NCBI GenBank assembly: GCA_029946125.1
Contig: JAQSDX010000002.1
Coordinates: 1 to 64,000 of the forward strand
Reading direction: 5' to 3'
From: Candidatus Methylobacter titanis
GTDB taxonomy: Bacteria; Pseudomonadota; Gammaproteobacteria; Methylococcales; Methylomonadaceae
Length of the DNA: 64,000 nt
Positions 1,806 to 46,286 of the stretch are shown here, in pieces. Positions within the stretch are counted from its first letter, which is position 1; every line of letters begins with the position of its first letter. The position numbers and the translations under genes were made by a program. A model generated the notes under the pieces. That model searched no databases and was not told the DNA's origin. It worked only from the letters and a program-made list of their open reading frames with translations.

Positions 1806-3749
1806 CTAATGCGTATGGTCGCACTCGGTCAGAAAGCTCAAGATGCTTTCCCGGTATTTGTAGTAATCGGGATGTTCCAGCAGGGCTTTGCGGCTGCGCG
1901 GCCTGGGCAAGTCAATGTCTTCGATTTTGCCGATTTTAGCGTGCGGGCCGTTGGTCATCATGACCACCCGGTCTGCCAGCAGGATGGCTTCGTCGACATC
2001 ATGGGTGACCACAATGGCGGTGACCTGGGTTCTGTCCCAGACTTCCATCAACACTTCCTGCAATTCCCAGCGGGTCAACGAATCCAGCATGCCGAACGGC
2101 TCGTCCAGCAACAGCAGCTTGGGCGATAAGGCGAAGGCGCGGGCGATGCCGACGCGCTGGCGCATGCCGTTGGACATGTCGGCGGCTTTTTTGTACAGCG
2201 AGTCGCCCAAACCGACGCGGGTCAGGTAATAGCTGACGATGTCATTGCGTTCCGATTTGGCCGCATGGGGATAGACCTTATCAACGCCCAACATCACGTT
2301 TTCGAATGCGGTCAGCCAGGGAAACAGGCTGGGCGCCTGAAACACCACGCCGCGATCGGGACCTGCGCTGTCAACTTCCTTGTTGTCCAGGATAATAACG
2401 CCTTCGGAGATGCTGTTTAAACCGGCGGTCATCGATAGCACCGTGGATTTACCGCAGCCGGAATGGCCGATGATCGAGATGAATTCGCCTTTTTTCATTT
2501 TCAGGTCGAAACCGTCCACGACCTTAACCGAACTGTTGCCGTCAGGGGTTGGATAAATTTTACACAGCTTTGAAAATTCCAGATAACGCGGGCGAGCTAC
2601 CTCATCCTGTGTGGGTTTTATCGCCAGGGATGGTGTGTATGCCGCAAGTCTGCCGGGAGCAGACGCGGCGATCGCCAGGGATGGTGTGTATGCCGCAAGT
2701 CTGCCGGGAGCAGACGCGGCGATCGCCAGGGATGGTGTGTATGCCGCAAGGTTGCCGGGAGCAGGCACGGCGATCGCCAGGGATGGTGTGAATGCCGCAA
2801 GCCTGCCGGGAGCAGGCGCGGCGAAGGCCGAATAAGCACGATTCCAGTCACTGTCGGTGTTAGGTTTTATTTTGGGCAGGACGATTTTATCAGCGCCTAA
2901 AGTCTGGTTTTTTGCGCTGCCGATGTCCATTAAATAACGGGTTATTTCGGCGCGTAAGCGTTTAAACTCGGGGTTATGGTTTAACGCGGTCCGGTCTCTG
3001 GGACGCTCGATATTGACCGGAAAATCCGGGCCGAAGGTCGCATCGGGGCCGGGATTAAGCGGAATAACCCGATCCGCCATATAGATGGCTTCATCGACAT
3101 CGTTGGTAATCAGGATGACGGTTTTCTTTTCCTGTTCCCAGATTTGCAAAATCTCATCCTGCAAGTTACCGCGCGTCAACGCATCCAGCGCACTGAGCGG
3201 TTCGTCCAGCAACAAAATATCGGGACTGGCCGCTAAGGCGCGGGCGACATTGACCCGTTGACGCATGCCGCCGGACAGCTCGGCGGGTTTTTTCGCCATC
3301 GCCGCGCCGAGATTGACCATCCTGACGTACTTTTCGGTATGTGCGCGACGCTGATCGGCAGGCCAGTGTTTGAATATCTGATCGACCGCCAGCGCCACGT
3401 TTTCGAACACCGTCAGCCACGGCATCAGCGAGTAGTTTTGGAACACCACGCCGCGATCCGGTCCCGGCGAGGTAATCGGTGATCCTTGTTTTAGCACCTC
3501 GCCGCTGTCGGCCTGAATCAACCCGGCAATCGTTGAAATCAGCGTGGTTTTGCCGCTGCCGGAAAAACCGACAATGGCGACGAATTCGCCTGCTTTAATG
3601 CTCAGGTTGATATTGTTGAGTATGGATGCCGCACCATAGCTTTTGCACACCGCCTTTAATTCGAGTAAAGGCTGGTAGGCGTCATTCGATGGCGCAGGCG
3701 GGTTATTTTGCATGTGTTTATTGACAATGTTGAGGTTCAAGACGGACAT
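1806..3749 (-). CDS. nrtCD: nitrate ABC transporter, two fused ATP-binding domains (NrtC/NrtD-like)
   Basis: A 647-residue protein with two complete ABC ATPase domains in tandem, where most nitrate/sulfonate/taurine-type transporters use one domain per chain. Domain 1 (about 27-270) has Walker [11 protein letters not shown]-loop [10 protein letters not shown], signature LSGGMRQRV and Walker [13 protein letters not shown]. Domain 2 (about 395-647) has Walker [20 protein letters not shown], a degenerate signature MSNGMRQRV and [12 protein letters not shown]. The degenerate second signature suggests one strong and one weak ATP site. The linker (about residues 309-377) is built of 17-residue repeats [17 protein letters not shown], encoded by 51-bp DNA repeats. 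It sits between nrtB and the porin gene. Confidence 0.9.
2620..2825. repeat. four 51-bp tandem repeats inside nrtCD
   Basis: Cores starting ATCGCCAGGGATGGTGTG begin at 2620, 2671, 2722 and 2773, exactly 51 bp apart, which is 17 codons. The unit contains a GCGATCGC palindrome at the junctions. The later copies drift slightly (for example AATGCCGC in the fourth). The array lies exactly in the linker between the two ATPase domains and keeps the frame. A related copy occurs in recO at 33880-33905 in the opposite orientation. Confidence 0.95.
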
Positions 3750-19591: not shown

Positions 19592-20908
19592 CTATAGAAA
19601 ATCGAAAGTCATTGGCACCCTGAAATTAAGTGAAACGTCTTGTGAATCGTTAGTCGTGCCAATACCTAAAGATAAATTGAAGGTGGTTTTGGGGGTGTAT
19701 TTGAACGAATAACCCACCAGGAGCTGCCCTATATCCAATGTACTCCCCCCAATGCCCTTGCCATCAATTTCAGATTCTAAAACATGTTTGTGCGAGTACC
19801 CTAAACTAAATGATGAGCGTTCATTAATGCCGAAGCCAAGACCAAAACTTAATCCTAGCGTATCCCCAGGATTAATCTTGCCGAAATTCGTACTGGTTTC
19901 AGCATTGTAACTATAGCTAAGATTGCCGAAAAAAACCGCCGGATCCGTTGGATAAAGCACGGTAAGACTGGGCTGAAAACTGAAGTATCCGGCCCCCGTC
20001 GGTAATTCGGTTGGAAATGTTGCGCCGGGCACCCCTTGAGCTTGTACATATTCAACATCAAAAGGGCTTTTTCCTGTGGGCGCCGTTGCCACTATATTGC
20101 CAACAAGAATCGGCCAGCCATTAGATCCGTTGGTAAGTTGGTAGCGTCCGGCAAATTCAAGATCGCCGATGTCATTTCCGGTGGCATTGAAAGTTTCATC
20201 AGCGCCCGCGCCAATACTTACCGGCCTTGAGCGTTGGGTATCATCACGGTAGACATAAGGAAGCCTGAACTCTACTTCCAGACGATCCGTCACCCCATAA
20301 CGAGTTCCCAGGGTGCCGATAAAACTGTGCCGTTTAACTTCGCGAAGATCAATCAGACCGATGGCAATGGCCGGAAGAAAGGTAAAGGCATCGAGAAATA
20401 CCCGGTTGTTACTGGTGTAGGCGTATTGCATGGATGGCTCAAAAACAATATTCCCTTTTCGGGTTAACACGCCGCCCACGGTATCGCTTAATCTGGGTAT
20501 TTCCGGTGGCCGTGGTTTCTCTGTTGTTCCGGGAGGTGCCTGGCCAACTGGCTTGGACGGAAGCGGATTAGGCGATGTTGATGGCTGTTTTTTAGTATTC
20601 GCTGCGACAATTTGCGGTTTATTGGATGCCTGTTTGACCGGCATCTGTTTCTCTGCGCCTTGATTTGTCAGGGAATCAAGGCGCAATTTTAGTTGTTCCA
20701 GCGCTTTGCCTTGCTCAGCAATAATCTGCCGTTGTAGTTGAAATTCTTTTTGCTGCTCGGCAAGCAGTTTCTTATATTGCGCCACAGAATTATTTTGCTT
20801 ACCGGTTTCTGCATAGCCTGGATTTACAAAAAAAACACAGCAGATAAAAATGAACCCTTTAATGGCACCGAATAAAAAAAACTGTTCCCTCTTAAAATAC
20901 ATCTTCAT
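19592..20908 (-). CDS. coiled-coil outer-membrane beta-barrel, FapF-like
   Basis: A 438-residue protein with a signal peptide (ending about residue 33, PGYA-ET), a coiled coil (about 38-85, QYKKLLAEQQKEFQLQRQII...), a proline-rich linker (about 108-140) and a beta-barrel (about 145-438) ending in Phe-Leu. This architecture is that of FapF, the trimeric outer-membrane channel that secretes amyloid subunits in Pseudomonas. It is the last gene of the cluster at 19.6-24.1 kb, 314 bp after the previous gene. FapF-like function is inferred from architecture and neighbours. Confidence 0.75.
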   Translation of the reverse strand: MKMYFKREQFFLFGAIKGFIFICCVFFVNPGYAETGKQNNSVAQYKKLLAEQQKEFQLQRQIIAEQGKALEQLKLRLDSLTNQGAEKQMPVKQASNKPQIVAANTKKQPSTSPNPLPSKPVGQAPPGTTEKPRPPEIPRLSDTVGGVLTRKGNIVFEPSMQYAYTSNNRVFLDAFTFLPAIAIGLIDLREVKRHSFIGTLGTRYGVTDRLEVEFRLPYVYRDDTQRSRPVSIGAGADETFNATGNDIGDLEFAGRYQLTNGSNGWPILVGNIVATAPTGKSPFDVEYVQAQGVPGATFPTELPTGAGYFSFQPSLTVLYPTDPAVFFGNLSYSYNAETSTNFGKINPGDTLGLSFGLGFGINERSSFSLGYSHKHVLESEIDGKGIGGSTLDIGQLLVGYSFKYTPKTTFNLSLGIGTTNDSQDVSLNFRVPMTFDFL

Positions 20909-21222
20909 ATGATTGTTTCCCTGTTTCCCTGTTTCAGTAGTAAAGTAAGAGCTATTGAATTCCTCGCTATATTTAAGGGTTCAATCCAATTGCAATAACT
21001 TTTAAGGACTTATTCGCAAGTAAAAAGCTTGATCAAAAGAACATGCGCGAATAAATTATCCAGCTGACTTTATACGTTATTAGTTCCGTTAGGGCAATTA
21101 GTGTAAATACTTAAGAATCAGCGCTGGATTAGTCCTTCGACAGACTAGGAATAAGCAGTAAGCTTTTTGATTTGTTTAGCGGTTACTCGTGATCTCGTCG
21201 AGCGCCGAATCCTTGGCTTCAG
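20909..21222. other. gap within the amyloid cluster
   Basis: I see no gene in these 314 bases. The region is AT-rich and could hold a separate promoter for the barrel gene, but I found no convincing -10/-35 or -24/-12 pair. A short imperfect repeat (TAGTCCTTCGACAGACTAG, near 21130) can form a small hairpin. Confidence 0.4.
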
Positions 21223-21720
21223 TTAACGCATATTGGGTAAGATAAGGTTATTAAAAACCATACCGTTACTATTTGCATTCAAGTTTTTTAAGTTACTGAC
21301 AGCTATATTAATATCGGTAACAGTGCTGATAACTTGATTATCCAGGTTATTCTGAATAACAGAACCCAACTCTGGCATCGCCAAATCTTGAGCTTGATTC
21401 ATATTGCCATTCTGAAACAATGAAGCATTGCCCGGTAATTGGAAAAACGAGGAAGAAACGACCGCGCCATTTAACGAAGTCATTCTCTCTAAACTAAAAT
21501 CTATGTTCACTCCGTTTGGAAGTATAAAACCGCCTCTTAGTTGATCCAGTTCACTGTCAGATGCTCGCTCCCAGTTGTCAAACTGGTGGGCAGCAATGGT
21601 TGAAATTTCATCGGCCACTACCTGACAGGCGAAGCCGGAACTGCCGCAAACGACTATGCAAAATACAGCCTTGATAAATTTCCGGTAGACGTTAAATTGA
21701 TATGCTTTCACGTTAAACAC
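21223..21720 (-). CDS. secreted protein with double-glycine-like motif, FapE-like
   Basis: A 165-residue protein with an N-terminal hydrophobic signal (about 14-36). The segment SELDQLRGGFILPNG (57-70) resembles a double-glycine leader; C39 peptidases cut after GG, and a C39 peptidase gene is directly upstream (9-bp gap). After it come NIDFSLERMTSLNG and a C-terminal stretch VIQNNLDNQVIS...INIAV that shares the IQN-x-x-x-N pattern with the two other small secreted proteins here. It is probably an accessory amyloid component or substrate of the peptidase. The family resemblance is from memory. Confidence 0.65.
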   Translation of the reverse strand: MFNVKAYQFNVYRKFIKAVFCIVVCGSSGFACQVVADEISTIAAHQFDNWERASDSELDQLRGGFILPNGVNIDFSLERMTSLNGAVVSSSFFQLPGNASLFQNGNMNQAQDLAMPELGSVIQNNLDNQVISTVTDINIAVSNLKNLNANSNGMVFNNLILPNMR

Positions 21721-21729
21721 TCCGCTTAA

Positions 21730-22425
21730 TTAAAAATCCCAGCGTCCAGGTTGCAACATATTGAATTGACCTAAACTGGCTCTATCAACGGCAGAACCTA
21801 ACGGCGCCTTGACCCTAAGCGCCCACTCTTGCTGATCTTGAAAATGCCTGGCCGCTACATCCTGTTTATCATGGATTAAAAATAAAATACGGTTGCCCCA
21901 CATTTGTTCAAACTCATCGCGAGGCATTGCTTTTATACCTACAGCGGGATCTCCCACCAGAACTTCCTGCTCATTGAGTCCTTTAATAATAACGAAATGC
22001 ATGTAACCGTTATTATTGATAATCGTGACTGCCGGCACATTGGCTGTAATCAATTGATCCAAGTTGATCTTGAAACCATCGGAGCGATAGCCGCGTCTTT
22101 CCAGATAAAGTTTAATATCCAGTAACGAAAACCCCTGCTTTTGAATTTTCTGCTGATCGCCATTTTTATACATATCAACAAATACACTTTGTTCGTTTAC
22201 CACATCGTCATAGTGATAAGTCAGCAGGCTGGCTAAAGTTGCCGAGCCGCAGCTGAAATCGTACTGTTGCTTGTATACCGTCTTGAAGCGTCGCTCTAAA
22301 AAACTGGTCACAGGAACGTTATAGTTACCGCCACCTGCAATGCCGCCATTAAAGTCGAGGGAATCTGCATGACTACAAAACGTAGGCAGCATCAGAAGAG
22401 CACATTTAGCAAAAAATCGTCTCAT
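21730..22425 (-). CDS. periplasmic C39-like cysteine peptidase, FapD-like
   Basis: A 231-residue protein with a signal peptide (to about 20). The C39 fold is clear: QQYDFSCGSATLASLLTYHY (Gln53/54, catalytic Cys59), YMHFVIIKG (His143) and VLVGDPAVG (Asp159). There is no ABC transporter domain, unlike bacteriocin exporters, so it acts alone in the periplasm. In Pseudomonas the equivalent FapD is needed for amyloid export. Probable substrates are the flanking small proteins with RGG and RGREG motifs. The ATG follows the previous gene by 27 bp. Confidence 0.85.
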   Translation of the reverse strand: MRRFFAKCALLMLPTFCSHADSLDFNGGIAGGGNYNVPVTSFLERRFKTVYKQQYDFSCGSATLASLLTYHYDDVVNEQSVFVDMYKNGDQQKIQKQGFSLLDIKLYLERRGYRSDGFKINLDQLITANVPAVTIINNNGYMHFVIIKGLNEQEVLVGDPAVGIKAMPRDEFEQMWGNRILFLIHDKQDVAARHFQDQQEWALRVKAPLGSAVDRASLGQFNMLQPGRWDF

Positions 22426-22452
22426 GTCGCAGTTCCACTGAATAAAAAATGA

Positions 22453-22815
22453 TTAAGGTATGATCGTTACATTAAGGATAGTCGAATCCTGAATAATGAC
22501 GTTGTTACCGCTGTTTTGAATAACACTGGTAATGCCGCTTGCCTGTGTAAAGGAGCCTCCATCGATTATATTGGCACCATTTATATTGTTGCTTGCTTGG
22601 TTATCAGTCAGGGTGGCGCGCAAGTTCATGTTATTAAGAGTCAATATATCTACTCCTTCACGCCCCCGCGCATTGTCCAGCTCTTCTAACTGCACCGTTT
22701 CCGTAGCAGAAAAAAGTAACGTATCCTGATGTTGAGCAGAATCAGCATTCGCCGCCTGACTTTGCACCATAACGACAAGTAGCGTTAACAAACAGCTCTT
22801 TAAACTTGTTCCCAT
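22453..22815 (-). CDS. small secreted protein with amyloid-type C-terminus
   Basis: A 120-residue protein with a signal peptide (to about 25, NADS). QLEELDNARGREGVDI (42-56) resembles the ELDQLRGGF motif of the neighbouring protein, with a split glycine pair. The C-terminal half is Asn-rich (NDNQASNNINGANI-type text) and ends with SVIQNSGNNVIIQDSTILNV, the same signature as the large repeat protein. It lies between the major repeat protein and the peptidase and could be a nucleator or minor subunit (FapA/FapB position). A GGAG-like site precedes the ATG. Confidence 0.6.
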   Translation of the reverse strand: MGTSLKSCLLTLLVVMVQSQAANADSAQHQDTLLFSATETVQLEELDNARGREGVDILTLNNMNLRATLTDNQASNNINGANIIDGGSFTQASGITSVIQNSGNNVIIQDSTILNVTIIP

Positions 22816-22918
22816 GACATACTCCTTACCTATTTGATGATATGCCAGTTAAGAGCCGGTGAGTAATGACTCACTCACCGGCAAACTGAAGTTTATTAAC
22901 GAATACCGTTAATAAATC

Positions 22919-24142
22919 TTAAGGAGCAATAGATGCAGAGCCTTGGGTAACATTTACAGTGCCGTCAACTAATACAGATTGTTGCGCTAAACCATTGCCA
23001 GAGTTTTGAAAGGTTTGAGTAATACCTGCGTTGCCTACAATCGAGTTATCGATACTATTGCCAACGGGTACATTGTTAAATGCCAAACTGACGGGGATAG
23101 TGCCAGCAAGACCTGTAACTGAACCGGTCAAATCTTGATTGTTGACTTTGAAATAGCTAGTTGCATCACCGCCGCCATTAGCCGCAGCCGATCCGTCTCC
23201 ACCTGCACTCGCATAGCTGTTATCAGAGTGGTTGCTGTTGTCTGTAATTGCATCGCCGCCACCATTAGCCGCAGCTGATCCGATTCCACTTGCATTTGCC
23301 TGGCTATTGTCTGTAGTTGCAGTTGCAGTGCTGCCATTATTAGCCGCAGCTGATCCTTGAGCACTTGCATCAGCCAAGCTGTTATCGCTGTTATCAGAAT
23401 TGTCAGAATTGTCAGAATTGTCTGAGCGATCCGACCAAGCAGTACTGCCATTGTTAGCCGCTGCGTCGGTTGCGGTAGCGGCGCTATTGTCAGAATTATC
23501 CGAGCGATCCGACCAAGCGTTACTGCCATTGTTAGCCGCTGCGTCAGTTGCAGTAGCTGCACTATTGTCAGAGTTATCGCTGTTATCAGAATTATCAGAA
23601 TTGTCAGAGTTATCTGAACGATCTGATATGGCGAGACTGGTTCCGTTAGCCGCTGCATCGGTTGCAGTAGCTGCAGTACTGTTGTCTGTAGTAGAGTTAT
23701 CTGAGTTATCAGAGTTGTCATTTAAGCTGTCAGAAACGGTAACAGGAACGTTTGTGGAGTTGTCACTGTTATTGCTGTTATCACTGTTATTGCTGTTATC
23801 AGAATTGTCATTTAAGCTGTCAGAAACGGTAACAGGAACGTTTGTAGAGTTGTCACTGTTATTGCTGTTATCACTGTTGTTAGTGTTGTCAGAGTTGTCA
23901 TTTAAGCTGTCAGAAACGGTAACAGGAACGTTTGTGGAGTTGTCACTGTTATTAGTGTTATCTGTCGCAGTCGAAAATTCATTTGCAGCCGTACTTGCTC
24001 CAGACTGATCGCTAGTCGCCGTTGCAGTCTGATCTCCATATGCTTTATCCGCTGTGTTGGTAGGATTCGCCCATGCACTGGAAACTGAGCCTAATGCAAG
24101 AAGAATACTTGCGGTTAATATTTTTTTATTAAATTGTTTCAT
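22919..24142 (-). CDS. Ser/Asn/Asp-repeat secreted protein, putative major amyloid subunit
   Basis: 407 residues from the ATG at 24142 (MKQFNKKILTASIL), which has GGAG upstream; a longer frame to 24175 lacks one. The signal peptide ends at WANP. The body is low-complexity: three 30-residue units (TNVPVTVSDSLNDNSDN...), then blocks of DNS repeats separated by AATATDAAANNG, then Gly/Ala/Asn-rich repeats. The C-terminal 70 residues are not repetitive (TIPVSLAFNNVPVGNS, GITQTFQNSGNGLAQQSVLV) and match the signature of amyloid-type secreted proteins. Position and export genes suggest the FapC role, though no CxxC motif is present. It could instead be an adhesive or ion-binding filament. Confidence 0.65.
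   Translation of the reverse strand: MKQFNKKILTASILLALGSVSSAWANPTNTADKAYGDQTATATSDQSGASTAANEFSTATDNTNNSDNSTNVPVTVSDSLNDNSDNTNNSDNSNNSDNSTNVPVTVSDSLNDNSDNSNNSDNSNNSDNSTNVPVTVSDSLNDNSDNSDNSTTDNSTAATATDAAANGTSLAISDRSDNSDNSDNSDNSDNSDNSAATATDAAANNGSNAWSDRSDNSDNSAATATDAAANNGSTAWSDRSDNSDNSDNSDNSDNSLADASAQGSAAANNGSTATATTDNSQANASGIGSAAANGGGDAITDNSNHSDNSYASAGGDGSAAANGGGDATSYFKVNNQDLTGSVTGLAGTIPVSLAFNNVPVGNSIDNSIVGNAGITQTFQNSGNGLAQQSVLVDGTVNVTQGSASIAP
23718..23970. repeat. 90-bp tandem repeats in the amyloid-like gene
   Basis: Units beginning TCATTTAAGCTGTCAGAAAC start at 23718, 23808 and 23898, exactly 90 bp (30 codons) apart, with only scattered third-position changes. The adjoining region 23390-23620 is a shorter-period repeat (TCAGAATTG/TCAGAGTTA). 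Such arrays are prone to slippage, so length may vary between strains. Confidence 0.95.
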
Positions 24143-24175
24143 TGTTGTTACTCCATGAATATATTCAAAAATCAT

Positions 24176-24516: not shown

Positions 24517-25053
24517 ATGAAATCGAGAGATAGAAGACGGGGGCTGGTTTTAGTCAACACTGGCACAGGCAAAGGGAAATCTTCCAGTGCTCTGGGTATG
24601 GTTTTTCGTGCCGCAGGCTGGGATATGAAGGTCTGTGTGATTCAATATATTAAGGGGCAATGGCAAACCGGCGAACAAAAAGCTGCCGAACGTTTTGATA
24701 ATATTGAATGGCATGCGATGGGTGACGGCTTTACTTGGGATACTAAGAATCCTGAGCAGGATATTAAAACCAGTCGGGAAATTTGGGAGTTTAGTAAGGC
24801 TAAAATTCTGTCTGGAGAGTTTGATCTGGTGTTGCTGGACGAGATCAATTACTGCTGCGGCTATAATTGGATTTCCGGCGAGGAAATCGCCGATTTTATT
24901 CGCGACCAAAAACCGTCCTGGACGCATTTGATTTTGACCGGTCGCAATGCCGCTCCCGAAGTGATCAGTTGTGCCGATACCGTAACCGAGATGACCAAAA
25001 TAAAACACGCTTTTGAGCAAGGGATTAAAGCCGAGCAGGGCATTGAATTTTAA
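24517..25053 (+). CDS. cobO: cob(I)yrinic acid a,c-diamide adenosyltransferase
   Basis: A 178-residue CobO/BtuR-family ATP:corrinoid adenosyltransferase. The P-loop NTGTGKGKSSSALGM begins at residue 13, followed by VCVIQYIKGQWQTGE, WHAMGDGFTWDT and the Walker-B-like LVLLDEINYCCGY. It adds the 5'-deoxyadenosyl group to cobalamin precursors in the cytosol. It stands alone here with no other cobalamin gene, so it may serve salvage. A GGAATAAG ribosome site lies just upstream. Confidence 0.94.
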   Translation: MKSRDRRRGLVLVNTGTGKGKSSSALGMVFRAAGWDMKVCVIQYIKGQWQTGEQKAAERFDNIEWHAMGDGFTWDTKNPEQDIKTSREIWEFSKAKILSGEFDLVLLDEINYCCGYNWISGEEIADFIRDQKPSWTHLILTGRNAAPEVISCADTVTEMTKIKHAFEQGIKAEQGIEF

Positions 25054-45608: not shown

Positions 45609-46286
45609 TTGACGGGAAATATTTTGAAACGATTGCTGACCCAGCGAAGTAGGGCTTGCTGTGCGCGCCTTTTGATCGGCGTGCTTTTCAGTTTAATGCT
45701 GGATCAGCCGGTATTGGCCCATGCCGGAGTCGATCACAGCAATAGTTGTTTTCTGAATATAGGCGAAACCCGATTGCGAATCAGCGGTTACTCCTTTCAG
45801 CCGGAGCTGGAAGGCAAAGCTTCCGCTCCTGCTCACGCCCCTTACCTACGTCCTGTAGGCAAAGCTTCCGCTCCTGCTCACGCCCCTTACCTACGTCCTG
45901 TAGGCAAACACTTTTGCCACTTTTTTCCCGAACTTGGGCAAATCGTGTTGGCGGTGGAGCCAATGGCGGCAGGACAGGAAAAGACCTTGGTCTCACTGGA
46001 ATTAGCGGCATTGACTTCGTGGTTAAATCCCGCCCAGGCATTTACCGTGATTAAGCGGCAGCCGGAACAGTCTATGAACTCTGGGCCGTCAATTTCGCAA
46101 ACCATCCGGCAGCGCGGTATCTACAGGCTTAATGTTACGTTGCAGGATGGTTCCGGTAATAGCCAGCAACAGCACTTTGTGTTTCTGGTCGGTATTCCGG
46201 TGACTAAGATAATGGTGATGATTGCCGGATTATTGGTTTTGGTGATTGGGTTTGCTGGGATCAGGGGGGTTAAAAAGAAGAGTTGA
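45609..46286 (+). CDS. membrane-anchored protein of unknown function with inserted repeats
   Basis: A 225-residue protein from a TTG (another TTG at 45624 is possible). A signal peptide ends near VLAHAG and a C-terminal helix (about 198-218, MVMIAGLLVLVIGFAGI) is followed by a basic tail, so the middle faces the periplasm. The start HAGVDHSNSCFLNIGETRLRISGYSFQPE resembles a copper-type beta-sandwich, but I cannot name the family. Residues about 70-99 are two copies of ASAPAHAPYLRPVGK from a 45-bp tandem repeat; without them the text would read FQPELEGKHFCHFFPELG. Confidence 0.6.
   Translation: MTGNILKRLLTQRSRACCARLLIGVLFSLMLDQPVLAHAGVDHSNSCFLNIGETRLRISGYSFQPELEGKASAPAHAPYLRPVGKASAPAHAPYLRPVGKHFCHFFPELGQIVLAVEPMAAGQEKTLVSLELAALTSWLNPAQAFTVIKRQPEQSMNSGPSISQTIRQRGIYRLNVTLQDGSGNSQQQHFVFLVGIPVTKIMVMIAGLLVLVIGFAGIRGVKKKS
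45813..45902. repeat. two identical 45-bp tandem repeats inside a gene
   Basis: Units 45813-45857 and 45858-45902, each GGCAAAGCTTCCGCTCCTGC followed by TCACGCCCCTTACCTACGTCCTGTA. They are identical. 45 bp is 15 codons, so the frame holds. A diverged copy is nested in the MITE at 31518-31564. Confidence 0.95.

Follow-up and report, generated by a model that had tools for sequence, protein, structure and literature searches.

Locus and Gene Content

A row of five genes lies on the minus strand of a 64,000-nucleotide stretch of the methane-eating bacterium Candidatus Methylobacter titanis (contig JAQSDX010000002.1, positions 1 to 64,000; hereafter the window). According to the list of open reading frames (ORFs), these are repC, small1, a C39 peptidase gene, a gene for a FapE-like protein, and a gene for an outer-membrane barrel (Table 1). 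The row can firmly be described, from homology and gene content, as a putative Fap-like export cluster. From repC to the barrel, the genes are separated by 103, 27, 9, and 314 bases. Beyond repC, a plus-strand ORF begins at 24517. The repC start at 24142 was preferred over the longer ORF start at 24175 because MKQFNKK or a near form occurs there in most relatives and GGAG lies upstream. All five proteins have signal-like N-termini, as judged by visual inspection and a simple hydrophobicity rule.

An earlier, sequence-only reading had taken the gene order as fapC-D-E-F. The five genes it listed are present, but small1 sits between repC and the peptidase gene, and neither fapA nor a canonical fapB was seen at the locus. 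The same gene order, which that reading had proposed to look for in related genomes, was found in relatives.

Table 1. Features of the Fap-like cluster, with positions in the window
Feature	Position	Strand	Size and basis
fapF-like outer-membrane barrel, N-terminal coiled-coil-like part	19592..20908	-	438 aa; NCBIfam FapF; structures 5o65/5o67
FapE-like secreted protein	21223..21720	-	165 aa; NCBIfam FapE E 0.002, residues 32-76; alignment
Double-glycine-like leader ASDSELDQLRGG of FapE-like protein, proposed cut before F	21529..21564	-	12.7 bits; 0/964 background ORFs as high
fapD-like C39 peptidase	21730..22425	-	231 aa; Pfam, NCBIfam, structure profile; sole match in its genome
small1 (small secreted protein; leader-like motif, one module)	22453..22815	-	120 aa; ORF; alignment of 11 sequences
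Double-glycine-like leader VQLEELDNARGR of small1, proposed cut after R (before E)	22660..22695	-	12.0 bits; 0/964 background ORFs as high
repC, repeat protein in fibre-subunit slot	22919..24142	-	407 aa; same-slot homologues in relatives; no curated family
C-terminal Gln/Asn module of repC	22949..23059	-	conserved columns; profile match to small1 and to L117/L121 repeats
Ala/Gly/Asn blocks of repC	23153..23656	-	block profile (including the window's own copies): three full and three shorter, first of them weak (E 0.93)
Asp-Asn-Ser repeat arrays of repC	23394..23962	-	Tandem Repeats Finder and composition

Peptidase and Barrel

Judged by sequence and structure profiles, the peptidase and the barrel are clear, distant homologues of FapD and FapF, which belong to the Pseudomonas machinery for the export of biofilm fibres. 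The peptidase matched Pfam C39 (1.6e-20), NCBIfam FapD (9.5e-40; 136 of 330 bits, below the equivalog cut-off), and NCBIfam FilB (1.2e-34), as well as the solved double-glycine protease domain 6mpz (6.9e-07) and the further C39 entries 4ry2 and ComA. Its catalytic residues, already noted in the sequence-only reading, are Cys59, His143, and Asp159, and all three are invariant in the 54 FapD rows compared. The barrel matched NCBIfam FapF (6.4e-44; 150 of 700 bits, again below the equivalog cut-off), NCBIfam FilC (2.2e-14), and the FapF structures 5o65 and 5o67 (~1e-31), with both PTG motifs aligned. The relation of the barrel to FapF, on which the sequence-only reading had staked itself, was thus borne out. 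Scores this far under the equivalog cut-offs mark both proteins as distant relatives of FapD and FapF. In the FapD alignment, columns 72, 90, 171, and 195 set both Fap branches apart from the rest, and seven columns switch between the window-type and canonical branches. We claim no leader-reading pocket in FapD from these columns.

Leader-like Motifs in Two Secreted Proteins

Double-glycine leaders follow the consensus L at −12, E at −8, L at −7, a hydrophobic residue at −4, and G at −2 and −1. Two proteins of the cluster carry a leader-like motif, each after a signal-like segment, which had gone unremarked in the sequence-only reading. The FapE-like motif ASDSELDQLRGG fits the leader spacing but has Ala at −12; VQLEELDNARGR of small1 reaches 12.0 bits, yet has Ala at −4 and Arg at −1. 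An alignment of 11 FapE-like proteins is variable in its first part but nearly fixed at SD.EL...RGGF, and canonical FapE proteins have EL..MRG[RK][FY], or something close to it, in the corresponding position. NCBIfam FapE matched residues 32-76 only of the FapE-like protein (E 0.002; N-terminal piece 0.0014), and it was the one model to match the window's N-terminal pieces in the leader family search. Relatives' N-terminal pieces gave weak matches to FilA (0.0018), VP1 pheromone (0.063), and DUF6160 (0.013); implausible matches, such as InlK (0.00016), also occurred.

To score the motif, a matrix was built from sites of 12 of the 13 canonical FapE loci (none from L077; the L069 site chosen by hand). 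These sites were picked by RG[RKG][FYV], so the last positions are fixed and positions −12 to −4 are free. The FapE-like protein (12.7) and small1 (12.0) both exceeded the best of 964 background ORFs (9.0). In 20 of 22 window-type loci an ORF near fapD scored above this background maximum (FapE-like protein alone, 17/22; small1 alone, 9/22). By pattern count, 21 of the 22 FapE-like ORFs contain RGGF, and 20 of 22 small1 slots contain a loose form of the motif. No canonical FapB or FapC protein (n = 19) scored above 4.7.

Twelve loci not used before were then considered. Without L161 (no cluster) and L151 (apparently the same record as L050), 10 were left, with RGGF at the site in eight and RAGF in two. 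These loci were found through the FapE-like protein, and the comparison therefore shows conservation of the site, not an independent origin. At loci of a third FapD group described below, a broad pattern counted without a background (L131 left out) picked out 13 of 18 loci as encoding a secreted protein in which a double-glycine-like stretch lies close to the signal-like segment; nine of these stretches read L...QMD.V.AG or close to it, two end in EGG, and two end in GQ.

The Repeat Protein and Its Shared Module

RepC contains 29 Asp-Asn-Ser (DNS) triplets and no Cys, and its low-complexity part of 288 aa has a charge of −41 and 8% hydrophobic residues. The sequence-only reading had described both the DNS arrays and the Ala/Gly/Asn blocks, and both were recovered. 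It had also treated the DNS repeats as the defining feature of the protein and suggested that they might bind ions. Neither idea was supported, since proteins in the same slot vary in length (132-807 aa) and in the number of DNS copies (0-83); those of L115, L116, L117, L119, L121, L123, and L135 were assigned to the slot by position and not by a repC match. Some slot proteins of 132-133 aa have no DNS. No DNS is present in those of L050, L151, and L152, and those of L028, L029, L119, and L135 are rich in K/T/N or G/A instead. A conserved or ion-binding DNS core was accordingly discarded, and the DNS repeats are a variable accessory. The absence of CxxC, reported there as unusual, is true of repC but ordinary: the motif is present in only 3 of 12 canonical-type FapC proteins and absent in 9. 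What stands of the earlier Fap-like reading is the FapD and FapF homology and the recurrence of the gene order in relatives.

The conserved part of repC, as far as profile comparison can tell, is the C-terminal Gln/Asn module, which small1 has in common with it and which the sequence-only reading had not described. With hhalign, this module matched the repeats of the L117 and L121 slot proteins at 96.8%, while small1 matched repC at 96.4% and the L117/L121 repeats at 95.0%. The C-terminus of the FapE-like protein matched small1 at 68.8%. Against canonical Fap repeats, the L117/L121 repeats reached 67.9% (E 4.9e-05), small1 11.1%, and the FapE-like protein 0.1%; reversed controls gave 0.2-0.6%. 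RepC is therefore tied to canonical repeats only through intermediates. The two slot proteins concerned (L117:5593-6504 and L121:3258-4163) are ~300 aa long and hold four and at least three module-type repeats, respectively. An additional small1-like match of 328 aa was seen at L121:6658-7644.

No credible family match was found for repC or small1 in Pfam or NCBIfam. Among solved structures, repC had no match and L121 one chance match, whereas a canonical FapC control matched FapC structures at 4e-22. An AlphaFold2 model of repC based on six sequences had a mean predicted local distance difference test score (pLDDT) of 45.1, and no structural conclusion was drawn from it.

Distribution of the Cluster

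The cluster is real and is conserved in Methylobacter relatives. Among 61 genomes (that of the window and 60 relatives), FapF at 80-86% identity was found in 8 of the 22 congeneric genomes other than the window's, and in one more member of the family. Six named loci found via the barrel comprise five from Methylobacter and one from Neptunomonas antarctica. All five genes stand together in the window, in L027-L033, and in L050, and also in L051, where fapF comes before repC. In genome G009, four of the five genes (FapE-like, FapD, small1, and repC) adjoin a second FapF/FapD pair (L035:4959-10531), and the close FapF of this genome is on another contig. The same G009 locus also encodes a pair of small secreted proteins, bearing LSTTQMDGVNAGG and LTETQMDNVSAGG. 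FapF was the sole cluster gene found on the short contigs L036 and L037. In genome G015, a 30-residue fapF scrap with a stop and 83% identity (G015:C22:23142-23234; L019, L045) is accompanied by no further cluster gene in L045 and is likely the remnant of a decayed cluster. An extra secreted coiled-coil-like protein of 137-153 aa, judged by eye, was observed between the FapE-like gene and fapF at L118:7612-8073, L120:7172-7585, and L122:9306-9734.

A FapD tree of 54 rows was calculated by a quick method with support from the Shimodaira-Hasegawa-like approximate likelihood ratio test (SH-aLRT). The window-type rows (n = 22) fell on one side of a branch with an SH-aLRT of 99, the canonical rows (n = 13) formed their own group with a support of 92, and the remaining 19 rows formed a weak third group (support 77). 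In a class sample of 274 genomes, the FapE family was matched in 12 and the FapF family in 49. At least nine class-sample loci carry the window's type (L115-L123); nine is a lower bound because only loci of the stronger FapF matches were taken up. The window-type branch is about as common in this sample as canonical Fap: not counting the window's genome, at least nine genomes have it, and 12 have a FapE-family match. Genome G072 holds both types (L072 and L119). A phylum sample of 299 supplied L134 and L135. In the order, the FapE-like protein was matched in 18 of 151 genomes; one of these, G719 (L161), showed no cluster. Separately, G528 (L136) was set aside as a chance match without a cluster.

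Proposed Mechanism and Alternatives

We propose a divergent Fap-type export locus in which FapD trims leaders, FapF exports, and Gln/Asn modules stack, and we put the probability of this reading at about 0.55. The five proteins would enter the periplasm by Sec, as their signal-like N-termini suggest. There, FapD would remove a second leader, of double-glycine-like form, from both the FapE-like protein and small1. The trimmed FapE-like protein and small1, together with repC, would exit through the FapF-like barrel. Outside the cell, the Gln/Asn modules may stack; the FapE-like protein and small1 would act as starters, repC would be the bulk subunit, and the variable acidic DNS part may serve as a disordered, hydrated coat or spacer. 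Within this proposal, the leader model is likely and a fibre plausible. A broader proposal, which we hold at even odds, is that FapD-type enzymes may be periplasmic leader peptidases whose substrates carry a Sec signal followed by a double-glycine-type leader, with removal of the leader licensing passage through a FapF-like barrel. The RG[RKG][FY] site of FapE, cut before F or Y, would be the FapD target, and the window's clade would be a separate, widespread branch with its own fibre subunits.

Several results weigh against the proposed reading. The canonical FapB/FapC repeat profile, which we built from 43 repeats of 15 ORFs and which is distinct from the published one, gave no match in the clade (best E 1.1). 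In hhalign, repC matched canonical repeats at 0.6%, no better than the control, and the FapE-like C-terminus matched the L117/L121 repeats at 0.2%. The C-terminal module of repC was modelled at a pLDDT of only ~32-47. The FapE family match of the FapE-like protein is weak (0.002), and small1 carries Arg rather than Gly right before the proposed cut. L123 (6.2) and L135 stayed below the background maximum, and in L119 only FapF exceeded it. Of the 10 further loci, only 5 had a matrix score above 10.6, the maximum among 324 non-family ORFs; as it was the window's FapE-like protein that led to these loci, conservation there is partly plain homology.

The product may also differ from a stack of Gln/Asn modules. 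The Ala/Gly/Asn blocks could form the fibre core as an imperfect-repeat solenoid, with the DNS stretches as loops and the C-terminal module as an export signal read by FapF. The window's three full and three shorter blocks have copies in many relatives, and AlphaFold2 drew the block part as strands at a pLDDT of ~48-69, against 29-40 for residues 21-150. We consider a block core unlikely: the proteins of L050, L151, and L152 have no usable blocks and retain the C-terminal module, the block profile was built partly from the window itself, and a model with a mean pLDDT of 45 belongs to a type that is unreliable on repeats. Alternatively, Fap-like export could serve a nonamyloid product, with repC as a soluble or surface-bound acidic coat or an ion-binding polymer. 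The composition and charge of its 288-aa low-complexity part and the failure of the profile to find canonical repeats in the clade would suit such a coat. A coat is nevertheless doubtful, given the Gln/Asn module common to repC and small1 and the L117/L121 slot proteins, in which this module recurs and resembles canonical Fap repeats.

It is also conceivable that FapD acts on FapF or another protein and that the motif of the FapE-like protein and small1 has another use, such as FapF binding. FapF was named as an alternative FapD target in the 2017 Fap paper, and motif-like stretches lie ahead of the barrel in FapF of L067, L068, and L116. By eye, FapF of L135 (L135:9067-10479) has two such stretches, SQLDRLRGTG and GSLDVLRGTG. 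Canonical FapF scored above 9.0 in 4 of 13 cases, but only two of these sites lie ahead of the barrel; the other two fall in the coiled coil or barrel, and chance hits therefore occur. The window's own FapF scored only 5.1, a value reached by 14 of 740 background ORFs, and the spacing in the FapE-like protein fits the double-glycine leader consensus given above. Such another FapD target and motif use seem quite improbable, and we keep cleavage of the FapE-like protein and small1 as the preferred reading.

Other Features of the Window

A 647-aa ORF (1806-3749, minus strand) encodes two halves resembling ATP-binding cassette (ABC) ATPases, named by eye, and its linker contains a 51-base tandem repeat of four copies at 2620-2824. 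A perfect 45-base tandem repeat of 2.2 copies (45812-45908, plus strand) lies within a 225-aa ORF at 45609-46286. The sigma-54 pattern was rejected, with 166 occurrences against 211 expected. Sigma-70 type promoters (7 against 9.9 expected) and terminators (8 against 5.0 expected, sd 2.3) were given no weight.

Comparison with Known Systems

Peptidase-containing ABC exporters such as PCAT1 and ComA share C39 homology (6mpz, 4ry2, ComA) and the leader spacing with the window's cluster; here, in contrast, the peptidase stands on its own, bears a signal-like N-terminus, and belongs to no ABC transporter. The Fil putative pilus system (NCBIfam FilA, FilB, and FilC) is alike in that the peptidase matches FilB and the barrel FilC. 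However, the FapD and FapF models match better, and the FilA model matched a protein of L125 and not the window's repC or small proteins. The Neisseria Nap island (NapP, NapF, and GG peptides) likewise has a C39 peptidase and a FapF homologue next to small proteins that carry double-glycine sites and are proposed to undergo a periplasmic cut (PMC11798529). Its products are short cationic peptides linked to autolysis, unlike the larger acidic or Asn-rich proteins of the window.

Pseudomonas Fap (fapABCDEF) is also among the closest systems and has FapD and FapF homologues, a small FapE-like protein, and subunit genes next to fapD in the same order of repeat protein, small protein, D, E, and F. 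The window's cluster differs in that no fapA was seen, the FapD proteins form a separate clade, the FapE match is weak, and repC consists of one C-terminal module with a long DNS part. We call the cluster Fap-like, and not a member of Fap, because the canonical FapB/FapC repeat profile matches nothing in its clade. A 2025 survey retained only clusters with a FapB/FapC repeat, so the window-type branch was probably omitted from it (PMC12392863). Among the matches listed in a literature search, titles and abstract openings named no FapE leader of this kind and no Methylobacter Fap cluster, which is weak evidence of absence, as preprints and most subscription journals lay outside its range.

According to the 2017 and 2018 Pseudomonas papers, the Cys of FapD is needed for FapC secretion, FapE alone among Fap proteins is the one for which N-terminal peptides were lacking, and GG and GA motifs in FapE are called suggestive; the FapD target is stated there as unknown, with Fap proteins lacking canonical C39 sites, and FapD and FapF are reported to co-localise in five further phyla (PMC5557850, PMC6173800). 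The idea that FapE is cut is thus already published (PMC5557850, PMC6173800). What is added here, from sequence comparison, is a conserved site that has leader spacing and occurs in both branches as well as in small1, together with a clade in which our profile finds no canonical repeats. The tie to strain UK4 is by family only. The site sequences suggest where FapD may cut, a point left open in the Pseudomonas papers, and a conserved leader-like FapE site that recurs in both branches, and here also in another protein, narrows the question of the FapD target to one assay.

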